DNA of 57,714 bases from Methylophaga sp. (lineage in GTDB: Bacteria > Pseudomonadota > Gammaproteobacteria > Nitrosococcales > Methylophagaceae). The stretch covers positions 1-57,714 of the forward strand of contig NZ_JAUSCC010000039.1 of assembly GCF_030651745.1 (NCBI RefSeq), given 5' to 3'. This document shows, one piece after another, positions 5,602-9,802 of the stretch. Within the stretch, counting starts at the first letter, position 1; each line of letters starts with the position of its first letter. Position numbers and translations under genes: made by a program. The notes beneath the pieces are model-generated. The model ran no database searches. It had not been told where the DNA came from and worked only from the letters and a program-made list of their open reading frames with translations.

Positions 5602-5825
5602 CGCAATTAACAAGTCTCTATATTCTTCCGGTTAAGGATTAACCGTTAAATCACTTGGTTTTATAAAAGCTTTTTCAGAATGTGATAACGCCGAAAGCCA
5701 TGCCATCGACAAGAATTAGTGCGCCAGCCGACAAGAAGAAATGCTATTCCACAGAACATAATAGCTACACGTGCCGCACTGCCGTGGCACCTCCGACATC
5801 TAGTAGTTATCCGAGGGGAATCATT

Positions 5826-7292
5826 ATGACAGAGCATATTTGCACACCAGGTTGTACACACGGCATCACAGCAGAAAATAAAAAAGACGTTGTTGAAGAG
5901 TTTGATACGGCAAGACGATCTTTTATTCGTAACGCTTTTGTTGGCGGTGGAGCCGCCTCATTAGGCGCCATGGGCGTGACCATGTCACCTATGAGTTTCG
6001 CTGCAGCTGGCGCCACTGGCACTGTTGATCCTGACGCGCCAGGTCCAATGCACTATTACATCCCCGCCACACCGGAAACCGTTATGTGGGGTTACTTCAG
6101 CAAAATCGCCAAACCTACCATTGAAATTGAGTCTGGCGACTTTGTCACCATGGAAACCCTCACTCATCACGCCAATGATGATGCCGAACGCATGGTGAAA
6201 GGTGACCCCGGTGCGGAAAGCATTTTTTATTGGGATGCCAAACGCAAAGGTGTCGACCGGCGTGGTGCCGGTCCAATGGATGCCAAGATTGGAGCTGGTG
6301 GTGGTGCCGGAGTACATATCTGTACTGGACCGGTACGCATCAAAGGTGCTCAACCGGGCGATATTCTTGAAGTACGTATTGCCGATGTGACACCCAGACC
6401 CAGTGGCAACCCGAATTACAAAGGTAAAACCTTTGGTAGTAATGCCGCCGCCTGGTGGGGTTTTCACTATGGAGATATGCTGACCGAACCGAAACAGCGT
6501 GAAGTCGTCACCATCTATGAAGTCGACGCCACCGGTGAACGTAACTGGGCCAAAGCCATTTATAACTATCGCTGGACACCACAAACCGATCCATTCGGCG
6601 TAGTACATCCCACTATCGACTATCCCGGTGTACCGGTGGATCACAGCACCATCACCAAAAAAGAAAATATCCTGCGCGATATTCGCATTCCGATCCGGCC
6701 ACACTTTGGCACCATTGGTGTCGCACCGGCCGAAGCCGATATGGTGAACTCGATCCCGCCCAACTATACCGGTGGCAATATTGATAACTGGCGGATTGGC
6801 AAGGGAGCAAAGATTTACTTCCCTGTCGCTGTTGATGGCGGCATGTTCTCGGTTGGCGATCCGCACGCCTCCCAAGGCGATTCAGAATTGTGTGGCACTG
6901 CTATTGAGTGTTCATTAACCGGCACTTTCCAGTTCATCCTGCACAAAAAAGCCGATTTACCGGGAACGCCACTGGCGGAGCTGAATTATCCATTGCTGGA
7001 AACGCAGGATGACTGGGTTTTACATGGATTCAGTTATGCCAATTATCTGGCCGAGCTGGGCCCTAATGCGCAAGACGATATCTACAGCAAATCTTCGGTT
7101 GATCAGGCTATGCGCGATGCCTATCGTAAGATGCGTCACTTCTTGATGACCACTCAAGCTTTGGATGAAGACGAAGCCATGTCGCTGATGTCAGTGGCGG
7201 TCGACTTTGGCATTACGCAGGTTGTGGATGGCAACTGGGGCGTGCATGCGATCCTGAAAAAATCCATGTTCCCGGCGCGAGGTAAGGGTTGA
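5826..7292 (+). CDS. Tat-exported acetamidase/formamidase family protein
   Basis: This 488-residue member of the FmdA/AmdA family would hydrolyse formamide or another short amide to ammonia and the acid. The ATG at 5826 follows GAGGGG. The N-terminus has a Cys/His-containing leader (HICTPGCTHG, residues 4-13), then ARRSFIRN and a hydrophobic stretch ending near AAAGATG, which is a twin-arginine signal with an unusually long n-region. The enzyme domain runs from about 75 to the end, with conserved GVHICTGPV, PGDxLEV, FGSNAAAWWGF, PIRPHFGTIGVAP, GGNIDNW and GDPHASQGDSELCGTAIE. Export implies action in the periplasm. The adjacent downstream gene carries a roughly 60 percent identical copy of the enzyme domain. 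Substrate specificity cannot be read from sequence. Confidence 0.85.
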   Translation: MTEHICTPGCTHGITAENKKDVVEEFDTARRSFIRNAFVGGGAASLGAMGVTMSPMSFAAAGATGTVDPDAPGPMHYYIPATPETVMWGYFSKIAKPTIEIESGDFVTMETLTHHANDDAERMVKGDPGAESIFYWDAKRKGVDRRGAGPMDAKIGAGGGAGVHICTGPVRIKGAQPGDILEVRIADVTPRPSGNPNYKGKTFGSNAAAWWGFHYGDMLTEPKQREVVTIYEVDATGERNWAKAIYNYRWTPQTDPFGVVHPTIDYPGVPVDHSTITKKENILRDIRIPIRPHFGTIGVAPAEADMVNSIPPNYTGGNIDNWRIGKGAKIYFPVAVDGGMFSVGDPHASQGDSELCGTAIECSLTGTFQFILHKKADLPGTPLAELNYPLLETQDDWVLHGFSYANYLAELGPNAQDDIYSKSSVDQAMRDAYRKMRHFLMTTQALDEDEAMSLMSVAVDFGITQVVDGNWGVHAILKKSMFPARGKG

Positions 7293-7318
7293 GGGTTGAG
7301 GGTTGAGGGTTGAGGGTT
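7286..7318 (+). repeat. GGGTTGA heptamer tandem repeat
   Basis: Four perfect GGGTTGA units plus GGGTT. The TGA of the first unit is the stop codon of the upstream amidase gene. The array occupies the start of the 80-base gap before the AraC-amidase gene. Confidence 0.9.
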
Positions 7319-7372: not shown

Positions 7373-9802
7373 GTGACTGACCTGAAACGCTTTTCTGCCA
7401 GTGCTATACCGGCAGAGCTACGCCAGCCAGCCTGGAATGAAATACTTTCCAGGCTCGGACTGGCGAGCCATGCCACAGGCATTGATACGCCAAATGACAG
7501 TGGCCATATGGCGCTGTCCATATCGGCACGCAACTCAGTATTTGTTCAACTGACTGCCGCACCACAAATTCTGTCACCTGTTGCCAGCAAAGCAACTCAA
7601 CCCTTACAGGGCACTGTATTGGTGCTCGCTTTGCTTGAAGGCACCGCACAGGTGCTGGATGCCGATCAAACCGTCAAGCTAAGTTCGGGCGACATCATGC
7701 TGCTGGACCCAAGCCAATCCTGGCAACTGGCGCTGCAAACCCGTTTTAGAATCCTGTTTATCAAGCTAGAATCCTCCAGCTTTCTGCTCAGGCTGGTGCG
7801 TACCGGTCGACAGCAAGCCAATCGCATCAGTACTCAGCAAGGTATAGGCGCTTTATGCCTGAACATGCTGCAATCGCTGACCGATCAACTGCAACATATG
7901 GAGCGCAATGAGCTGCCCGCACTGGAAGCCACACTGGCCGAGTTGCTGGTAGCCTGTCTTTCACATAAGCACTCAGAAGAAAATGACGATGCCACAGACG
8001 TGCAACTGGCTCACTTACGCCGTGTTTGTCGTTCCGTGGATGCACGGCTTGACGATCCGGAGTTAAATATCGAACAGATCGCCAGCCAGGAAGGATTATC
8101 AGCCCGCTACTTACAAAAACTGTTCAAGAACAGTGGTACGACCTTCAGCGAGTATCTGAAGAGTCGGCGGATCCAACACTGCTGTATCGATTTGGCCAAC
8201 CCGGCATTGGCGCAGTTCAGTATTGCCCAGTTATGTTACCGCTGGGGATTTAATGACGCAGCGAACTTCAGCCGTACTTTTTCGCAGTACATGGGCATGT
8301 CACCAAAAAGCTATCGCGCTGCTCCGCCGCAGGATCTGCATGAACAGCTGAGACGTGGTTGCCCACAAACCTCCCCTTCTTCCCGTTCATCCATTAGCGC
8401 TCCAGTCGAAGCACACCTGGATGACGATTTACAGAAACGCCGCAGGCCCTTTCAGGAAGTGCTAGACGATCATGCTCGCTACGCCCTTTCACTGCGGCTT
8501 GCACCCAAACGCGTGTCGTACTCACAGGATCCGGATCCGCTACCTACACCACGGCAATATTATCTGCCAGTGTCGGATAAAACCGTTCACTGGGGCTATT
8601 TCAGCAATGAGATCAAACCGGTGTTAACCATCCGCTCCGGCGATATTGTGACCATCGAAACCTTGTCCCAGCATGCCAGTGATGACTGTGAACGGATGAT
8701 TGATGGCGACCCAGGTGCACAAAGTGTTTTCCACTGGACGCATAATGCCAAAAACGTAGATCGGCGTGGTGCTGGTCCGATGGATGCCAGCATTTTTGGC
8801 CGGGGTGCCGGAGAAGGTTTTGGCGTACATATCTGTACTGGCCCTGTTTATGTCACCGATGCCGAACCCGGCGATGTGCTGGAAATACGCATACTGGATA
8901 TTCAACCCCGGACCAGCTGCAGCCCGGAGCATCAAGGCAAACATTTTGGCAGCAATGCCGCTACCTGGTGGGGCTTTCAATATGACGATCTGCTCACCGA
9001 ACCCAAAAAACGCGAAGTCGTCACCGTTTACGAAGTGCATCAACACACCCACCCGCCACATGCCAAAGCCCTCTATAACTTTCGTTGGACACCACAAACA
9101 GATCCTTATGGCATTGTGCACCCGACCATTGATTACCCCGGCATAGTGGTTGACCATTCCAGTATCGATAAGCAATTCGGCATACTCGAAAAGGCGACGA
9201 TTCCGGTACGACCACATTTTGGGGTGATGGCCGTTGCTCCACGTGAAGCTGGTTTAGTTGATTCGATTCCGCCAAGTTATTTTGGCGGCAATATGGATAA
9301 TTGGCGTGCAGGTAAAGGCAGTAAATTATTCCTGCCGGTAGCCACCGCTGGAGCACTGTTTTCGGTTGGTGATCCCCATGCTTCTCAAGGTGATTCAGAG
9401 TTATGCGGCACCGCTATCGAGTGTTCATTAACCGGTGTATTTCAGTTGGTTTTACACAAACAACGGGATCTAAAAGGCAGTTTTATGGATGGCCTCAGTC
9501 ATCCGTTTCTGGAAACCCCGGATGAATGGGTATTGCAAGGCATGAGCTTTTCAGACTATCAGGCAGAGCTGGGGCCTAACGCCCAGACTCAGGTATATAA
9601 AAATTCATCGATGGAAGCCGCCATGCGCGATGCCTTCCGAAAAGCTCGTCACTATTTAATGAAAGAACACCAGCTAAGCGAAGATGAAGCCATTTCTCTG
9701 ATTTCCGTAGCCGTGGATTTTGGTATTACCCAAGTAGTAGATGGCAATCTAGGCGTACATGCCATTATTCGCAAAGCCATTTTTCCGGATTACAAAGCCT
9801 AA
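7373..9802 (+). CDS. AraC-type regulator fused to acetamidase/formamidase domain
   Basis: One 809-residue frame joins two proteins. Residues 1-190 look like an AraC_binding_2-type ligand domain (beta-rich, GDIMLLDPSQSWQ). Residues about 215-316 are a full AraC/XylS DNA-binding domain with both helix-turn-helix units (IEQIASQEGLSARYLQKLF, and IAQLCYRWGFNDAANFSRTF followed by GMSPKSYR). A 65-residue linker with RKR-type and Ser-rich sequence leads to an FmdA/AmdA domain (about 385-809) that keeps every conserved block seen in the upstream exported enzyme, including GVHICTGPV, RPHFGVMAVAP and GDPHASQGDSELC. It has no signal peptide, so it should be cytoplasmic. The start is GTG 7373 with AAGGAA upstream. 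It probably regulates the upstream amidase gene; sensing through an enzyme-like domain is inference. Confidence 0.88.
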   Translation: MTDLKRFSASAIPAELRQPAWNEILSRLGLASHATGIDTPNDSGHMALSISARNSVFVQLTAAPQILSPVASKATQPLQGTVLVLALLEGTAQVLDADQTVKLSSGDIMLLDPSQSWQLALQTRFRILFIKLESSSFLLRLVRTGRQQANRISTQQGIGALCLNMLQSLTDQLQHMERNELPALEATLAELLVACLSHKHSEENDDATDVQLAHLRRVCRSVDARLDDPELNIEQIASQEGLSARYLQKLFKNSGTTFSEYLKSRRIQHCCIDLANPALAQFSIAQLCYRWGFNDAANFSRTFSQYMGMSPKSYRAAPPQDLHEQLRRGCPQTSPSSRSSISAPVEAHLDDDLQKRRRPFQEVLDDHARYALSLRLAPKRVSYSQDPDPLPTPRQYYLPVSDKTVHWGYFSNEIKPVLTIRSGDIVTIETLSQHASDDCERMIDGDPGAQSVFHWTHNAKNVDRRGAGPMDASIFGRGAGEGFGVHICTGPVYVTDAEPGDVLEIRILDIQPRTSCSPEHQGKHFGSNAATWWGFQYDDLLTEPKKREVVTVYEVHQHTHPPHAKALYNFRWTPQTDPYGIVHPTIDYPGIVVDHSSIDKQFGILEKATIPVRPHFGVMAVAPREAGLVDSIPPSYFGGNMDNWRAGKGSKLFLPVATAGALFSVGDPHASQGDSELCGTAIECSLTGVFQLVLHKQRDLKGSFMDGLSHPFLETPDEWVLQGMSFSDYQAELGPNAQTQVYKNSSMEAAMRDAFRKARHYLMKEHQLSEDEAISLISVAVDFGITQVVDGNLGVHAIIRKAIFPDYKA

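Follow-up and report, generated by a model that had tools for sequence, protein, structure and literature searches.

An AraC-type regulator with a fused, altered amidase domain: a candidate sensor paired with its catalytic paralogue

What does a complete amidase domain do inside a transcriptional regulator? The window (the whole 57,714-nucleotide stretch of Methylophaga sp. DNA analysed here) contains an AraC::FmdA_AmdA fusion gene (7373..9802, + strand; 809 aa, GTG start) that lies 80 bp 3' of an enzyme gene. ORF analysis gives an uninterrupted frame of 809 codons from the GTG to the stop (7373-9802), and the initial annotation, which had described an AraC ligand domain, a two-HTH domain and a full amidase domain in a single frame, is borne out by Pfam matches that all lie above cut-off. 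The AraC_binding_2 cupin domain (residues 75-196; 7595..7960, +) scores 47.5 bits against a Pfam cut-off of 27 and has AraC-like and cupin fold matches. The two-HTH DNA-binding domain (residues 237-316; 8081..8320, +) scores 69.1 bits with HTH_18 (cut-off 33.6); its HTH_18 and HTH_AraC matches reach residue 316 above the Pfam cut-offs, and its fold matches are to AraC-type DNA-binding domains. The protein therefore has both the N-terminal cupin and the two HTHs of the AraC/XylS family. A low-confidence stretch of the AlphaFold2 model (residues 321-349) precedes a predicted linker helix (residues 351-376; 8423..8500, +), which is partially conserved. The fused acetamidase/formamidase domain (residues 394-806; 8552..9790, +) belongs to FmdA_AmdA (PF03069) by profile match and by fold, with its best stretch at residues 485-804 above the Pfam cut-off. 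At 141.9 bits, the fusion falls below the cut-off of 199 for the NCBI profile of the FeaR equivalog (NF007243) and so is not assigned to it, and its 52.8 bits with the formamidase FmdA NCBIfam (NF045496, cut-off 500) are below equivalog level. FeaR-like AraC/XylS proteins (AraC_binding_2 + HTH_18) share with it the N-terminal cupin, the two HTHs and a direct repeat by the -35 (predicted here), but lack the extra C-terminal enzyme domain of about 410 aa.

The upstream neighbour (5826..7292, +) is a Tat-exported FmdA_AmdA enzyme, based on its Pfam match, its relationship to 3b9t and its RR signal; it is the paralogue of the fused domain and the predicted target of the regulator. Its ATG at 5826 is backed by relatives, though the longest ORF begins at 5682, and its score with NF045496 (68.3 bits) is also below the cut-off of 500. 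Earlier estimates for this enzyme held up: the twin-arginine signal is present in the sequence, and the alignment with the enzyme part of the fusion, put at about 60 percent identity by eye, gives 62% over 432 aa. The structure 3b9t, an acetamidase/formamidase of Methylobacillus flagellatus, is of the same Tat type. Compared with it and other PF03069 enzymes, the fused domain is tied to a regulator, has no export signal, and carries Gln for the first His of the THHA motif (Gln433, codon CAG at 8669..8671, +), a His found in the stand-alone relatives examined. The fusion gene probably shares one transcript with the Tat enzyme gene at 5826. A tandem GGGTTGA repeat (four copies and a partial one; 7286-7318) starts at the stop codon of the Tat enzyme and occupies part of the 80-bp gap before the fusion gene. 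The immediate neighbours checked in the window fit the earlier remark that no amide transporter is nearby.

That two genes were read as one through an assembly or annotation artefact has a practically negligible probability. In a database of 5.8 billion proteins, HTH_18 and FmdA_AmdA occur in one protein in 119 of the best 120 matches listed (the window's entry, P0002, included); the other fusions are 49-91% identical to the window protein. These single-frame fusions come from many sources and refute an artefact, so the frameshift that the initial annotation had guarded against does not explain the gene. A stand-alone piece and a broken copy speak weakly for an artefact. The piece, P0106, is the exception among the best 120 matches, a 473-aa stand-alone protein on another contig that is 91% identical to the window's fused domain, keeps the linker helix and Gln433, and is either a split fusion or a fragment. 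The region of the apparently broken copy (L090, 5328-7737, Rhizobium johnstonii pRlX5) is annotated as a pair of genes, one for a hypothetical protein and one for a shorter acetamidase.

The fusion architecture is widespread in Proteobacteria, and some fusions carry the JGI name 'acetamidase/formamidase/AraC-like DNA-binding protein'. The initial annotation knew of no described regulator of this build, and no publication on AraC + FmdA_AmdA proteins was found in the open literature searched. PMC5052560 mentions a 'transcriptional regulator of acetamidase genes' removed from its sequence set, which may or may not refer to such fusions. By ORF analysis there are 64 fusion loci, the window counted in and two duplicates included (L092 of L028, L116 of L021). 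The nearest genome matches to the window are in Methylophaga and Nitrincola (AraC part 83-88%, enzyme part 91-96%). With the two best candidates scored per genome, at least 8 of 397 sampled genomes of the phylum have the fusion, including the centre genome (G001), which was picked for having one. The partner gene adjoins the fusion in 7 of these 8; the other, G103, lacks a partner, and no further FmdA copy was found in its genome (L094). Within Methylophaga, the genus of G001, the fusion and its partner occur together in 4 of 24 genomes (G001 among them), and a related enzyme occurs in the absence of a fusion in 5 of 24. In fusion-free Methylophaga genomes (L109-L113) the related enzyme has a different, Sec-like leader and no operator.

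Three types of stand-alone enzyme accompany the fusions: Tat-type (T), signal-less with 55-64% identity and mostly about 413 aa (C), and distant with about 358 aa (S). A separate enzyme copy is present in the fetched stretch at 56 of the 64 loci, the nearest FmdA paralogue being T at 25, C at 20 and S at 11, with none at 8. The expectation that the fusion always sits beside a Tat-type paralogue thus fails, since the nearest copy is of another type at 31 of 64 loci. Among the partnerless loci, contig ends truncate L011, L013 and L041 (an incomplete FmdA gene is visible in L013), the partners of the L025 and L029 fusions are on other contigs or far off, the only copy found elsewhere for L115 is a distant one, and L085 is a plasmid. 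The initial annotation had further proposed that the cytoplasmic fusion reads amides that escape periplasmic hydrolysis. This does not stand as a general rule: in Oxalicibacterium and Herminiimonas the partners retain the start of the leader but have neither the twin arginine nor the hydrophobic stretch, and in rhizobia and Burkholderiaceae the partner is often a signal-less 413-aa enzyme encoded in an operon with an ABC transporter, so that partners are exported in some lineages only. A solute-binding protein (an SBP_bac_3 relative) and an amino-acid-type ABC transporter are encoded in the fetched stretch at 18 of the 64 fusion loci, and a RidA protein at ten. The ABC-transporter, RidA, PuuE-like, Rieske and LigB neighbours indicate several pathways and no one substrate. 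In Herminiimonas sp. KBW02 (L119, G006:C11, 5393-6816) an extra FmdA gene is apparently split over two frames, with an operator-like site still 5' of it.

A quick tree was built, without position 433, from 93 of 287 domains thinned to at most 85% identity within class; it unites the fused enzyme domains in a single clade (SH-aLRT 98). The one non-fusion row inside this clade, L043_2, comes from a domain truncated at the edge of its locus, and its sister is a fusion. We considered a recent duplication of the neighbour as the origin of the fused domain and rejected it, because this clade stands separate from the stand-alone enzymes; the fused domain thus did not arise by recent copying of the adjoining gene. 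On these sequences, an old fused-domain lineage is combined with several enzyme types.

What might the AraC part bind? Among aligned promoters of the window and its Methylophaga, Nitrincola, Halopseudomonas and Pseudomonas relatives, a 30-bp block is kept amid otherwise diverged DNA 5' of the Tat gene. This predicted operator, CGACAAGAATTAGTGCGCCAGCCGACAAGA (5707..5736, +), is a direct repeat of CGACAAG with a 22-bp period (CGACAAG-N15-CGACAAG), 89 bp 5' of the Tat enzyme ATG at 5826, and its first 19 bp have no second match in the window at ≤3 mismatches (0.02 expected). Its sequence is kept across clades. A putative -10 hexamer, CATAAT (5757..5762, +), follows 20 bp after the operator at an offset that is constant in relatives. 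The best TATAAT-like hexamer starts exactly 20 bp past the block in 14 of 16 training promoters, 6 of these 14 matching only 3/6 letters; 5/6 letters are matched in 8 of the 16, one of them at offset 19. The proximal half-site of the predicted operator would overlap the -35, the usual operator position of AraC-type activators.

An operator matrix was built from 16 gamma- and betaproteobacterial promoter sites and applied to the 700 bp 5' of each enzyme domain at a threshold score of ≥15; letter-shuffled promoters, 20 for each, reached at most 14.0. Within fusion-bearing loci or genomes, a set that includes nine loci added by hand (L030, L034, L043, L048, L053, L061 and L117-L119), 25 of 26 Tat enzymes reach the threshold (16 training sites, 6 near copies and 3 Delftia sites), while a site directly upstream was found for no more than 10 of 23 enzymes of the C type and 3 of 16 of the S type. 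Many of the C-type misses arise because transporter genes stand first in the operon. No site of ≥15 was found before enzymes whose loci show no fusion (0/8 Tat, 0/6 C, 0/25 S). For the controls from the 397-genome sample the two best candidates per genome were scored, so a fusion may lie elsewhere in those genomes; for the Methylophaga controls every candidate was scored. One of the 14 operator-free T/C controls, L105, nests inside the window enzyme's own clade. In Herminiimonas, where fusion and enzyme are unlinked, all three fetched enzyme promoters (L117-L119) have the site.

Because the matrix was trained on the promoters that suggested the operator, the weight falls on the held-out and control loci. 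Leaving aside the training loci and their near copies, 43 fusion loci remain, and in 31 of them a site of ≥15 lies just upstream of a gene (a hand tally with two duplicate loci counted in). The genes behind these sites are the partner enzyme, the solute-binding protein of the transporter operon, porin, nitrile hydratase beta, ribokinase and the fusion itself. The site lies about 50-205 bp before the solute-binding protein gene in L052, L064, L082-L084, L087, L088, L090, L093 and L095-L098. Apparent targets elsewhere are a porin (L021, L024, L026), two genes of L114 (for a ribokinase and for a Rieske oxygenase) and, in L025, L029 and L094, the promoter of the fusion gene itself. Nitrile hydratase beta is under the operator in L016, and in L083 nitrile hydratase lies on the same strand downstream of it; as nitrile hydratase makes amides, this fits an amide inducer. 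No promoter site of ≥15 was found in 12 of the 43 held-out loci: L011, L013 and L041 have little upstream sequence, and nine (L031, L033, L036, L038, L046, L072, L085, L086, L089) lack a contig-end explanation. The best match in L072 (15.8) lies inside a predicted reverse ORF before the fusion and was left uncounted. A whole-genome scan with a 29-bp pattern (≤3 mismatches) gave one match each in 7 of 12 genomes, all seven at the enzyme promoter, and the reversed control pattern matched in 0 of 12; the five genomes without a match carry more diverged sites. The earlier proposal that the fusion regulates its neighbour is thus well supported by a conserved, predicted AraC-type operator whose spacing suits a promoter and which accompanies the fusion, being absent upstream of related enzymes at loci that show no fusion. 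The repeat is not exclusive to fusions: similar sites lie close to stand-alone AraC relatives too, which is what recognition by the AraC part would predict. In L114, related operator-like sites stand before the ribokinase gene and the Rieske gene; in L043, such a site stands before a LigB-like gene.

Does the fused domain sense or catalyze? Across 74 near-invariant positions (≥97% identical in each of the three stand-alone classes), the fused class shares the stand-alone consensus at 73, and at 65 of these fused domains keep the residue in ≥95%; the sole exception is position 433, His to Gln. The 181 fused domains compared (64 taken from loci and 117 from database proteins, with some overlap between the two sets) have Gln433 in 175 cases and His433 in 6. 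His433 is found in 105 of 105 stand-alone domains of the loci with the column filled (one further domain is incomplete) and in 240 of 240 database matches (the best 120 each for the Tat and a 413-aa enzyme), and the Gln of the window sets its fused domain apart from the 3b9t-like stand-alone amidases (T, C and S). Among the 240, 235 were read automatically as His, and the remaining five read THQ, keeping His433 while residue 434 varies. These are the Tat-type proteins P0202, P0208, P0211, P0213 and P0218, in which the second His of THH is replaced. The residue aligned to 433 in a distant family member, 3tkk, is Cys. No published mechanism or metal ligands of PF03069 enzymes were found in the open literature searched; according to PMC5353710, the mechanism of 2WKN remained elusive.

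The conservation of near-invariant residues other than 433 would also be expected of an active enzyme. The fused domain could be a trigger enzyme, active and setting the activity of the AraC part by turnover or product release, with His433 to Gln shifting only preference or rate. We regard this as rather unlikely, although the consensus kept at 73 of 74 positions argues for it, as does the enzyme domain, which is conserved more strongly than any other part of the fusion (on average 76% identical to the window, vs 48% for residues 75-200). It also draws on the fusions with His433 (L041, L072, L086, L114, L115, P0080), which indicate that either residue state can exist in a fusion; the domain tree requires four changes of state at this residue. 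Five His433 genomes (G010, G011, G432, G433 and G442, the last counted from its cut domain) showed no Tat- or 413-type copy. The link between His433 and an absent partner is loose, because in six Gln433 genomes (G012, G434-G437, G439) the only other copy found is of the 358-aa type. Two things weigh against a trigger enzyme: the near-uniform Gln433 of the fused class, where every stand-alone match has His, and the separate copy at most fusion loci, which would often make a second catalytic copy redundant. L072, L114 and allied Caulobacterales/Sphingomonadales loci combine a His433 fusion with a separate pair of stand-alone AraC and 358-aa FmdA genes, and adjoin Rieske, SDR and, in several cases, LigB genes.

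Alternatively, the cupin might sense the inducer as in any AraC protein, the amidase being a merely co-expressed, tied cytoplasmic enzyme. The fusion does have a cupin domain, and Caulobacter and its allies have a stand-alone AraC relative of about 320 aa directly 3' of the 358-aa enzyme gene, with related sites and no fused domain. At matched identity of the DNA-binding domain, however, fusions are 9-14 points less alike in the cupin half than stand-alone AraC relatives are (identity by band, fusions/stand-alone: 0.29/0.39, 0.39/0.48, 0.53/0.66 and 0.63/0.77), in a comparison of 64 fusions with 37 mostly Caulobacterales stand-alone proteins whose pairs are not independent. This faster drift, together with the separation of the fused domains from all stand-alone enzymes as one clade with its own residue, makes a passenger amidase quite improbable. 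The cupin drift, the best-kept enzyme domain and Gln433 instead suggest that inducer recognition moved to the fused enzyme pocket. Between the two roles offered by the initial annotation, trigger enzyme or amide sensor, the cupin drift and the His433 replacement favour the sensor, though slow catalysis may persist.

The fusion, its single clade, the conserved operator-like repeat with its co-occurrence with the fusion, and the change at 433 are features of the sequences compared. The reading we hold to be probable is that of an AraC-type activator, rather than a repressor, in which a duplicated and altered amidase domain acts as the sensor and turns on its own catalytic paralogue. An amide, the pathway substrate, would enter the cytoplasm and occupy the fused active site, which keeps its pocket and in which Gln for His433 would permit binding without normal turnover. 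A signal through the linker would then let the AraC domains bind the CGACAAG-N15-CGACAAG repeat and, with the proximal half on the -35, bring RNA polymerase to the promoter from which the catalytic paralogue is transcribed; in the window this paralogue is the Tat enzyme at 5826.

Such a regulator would have partial counterparts among known systems. GlxA/CdhR-type AraC regulators likewise join an AraC DNA-binding domain to an enzyme-like domain (DJ-1/PfpI); this domain is a different one, and these regulators are not known to target a catalytic paralogue next to them. PutA, BirA and other trigger enzymes combine enzyme and regulator in one protein, but catalysis by the fused domain described here is only putative, with one conserved His replaced. 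A parallel in principle is MocR/GabR (PMC5320631, PMC8739950), in which an enzyme fold is joined to a DNA-binding domain as sensor, as proposed here. MocR/GabR proteins consist of a GntR-type DNA-binding domain and an aminotransferase-like sensory domain, and the fusion draws on other families for both. In contrast to MocR/GabR, the putative sensor of the fusion is a paralogue (62% in the window) of the predicted target enzyme, with one class-wide residue change.

More tentatively, and short of thinking it probable, we propose a regulator family in which an enzyme was copied into its own activator and His433 to Gln turned the catalyst into a long-lived amide sensor, the His433 fusions of Caulobacterales/Sphingomonadales being self-resetting trigger enzymes. 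No described substrate or mechanism for the 3b9t-like amidase family was found in the open literature searched, and the present analysis proposes a regulator and a regulon for this widespread family. If the proposal is true, the genomes concerned hold an enzyme/sensor paralogue pair with nearly the same pocket, in which the sensor would drive the enzyme and its transporter, and some species would place their amide-forming nitrile hydratase under it as well. The predicted operator could report the activity of the catalyst/sensor pair, and the fusion could yield a modular amide-responsive switch. With side-by-side paralogues, nearly the same conserved residues and one diagnostic residue, the family would offer a test case for how an enzyme becomes a sensor.
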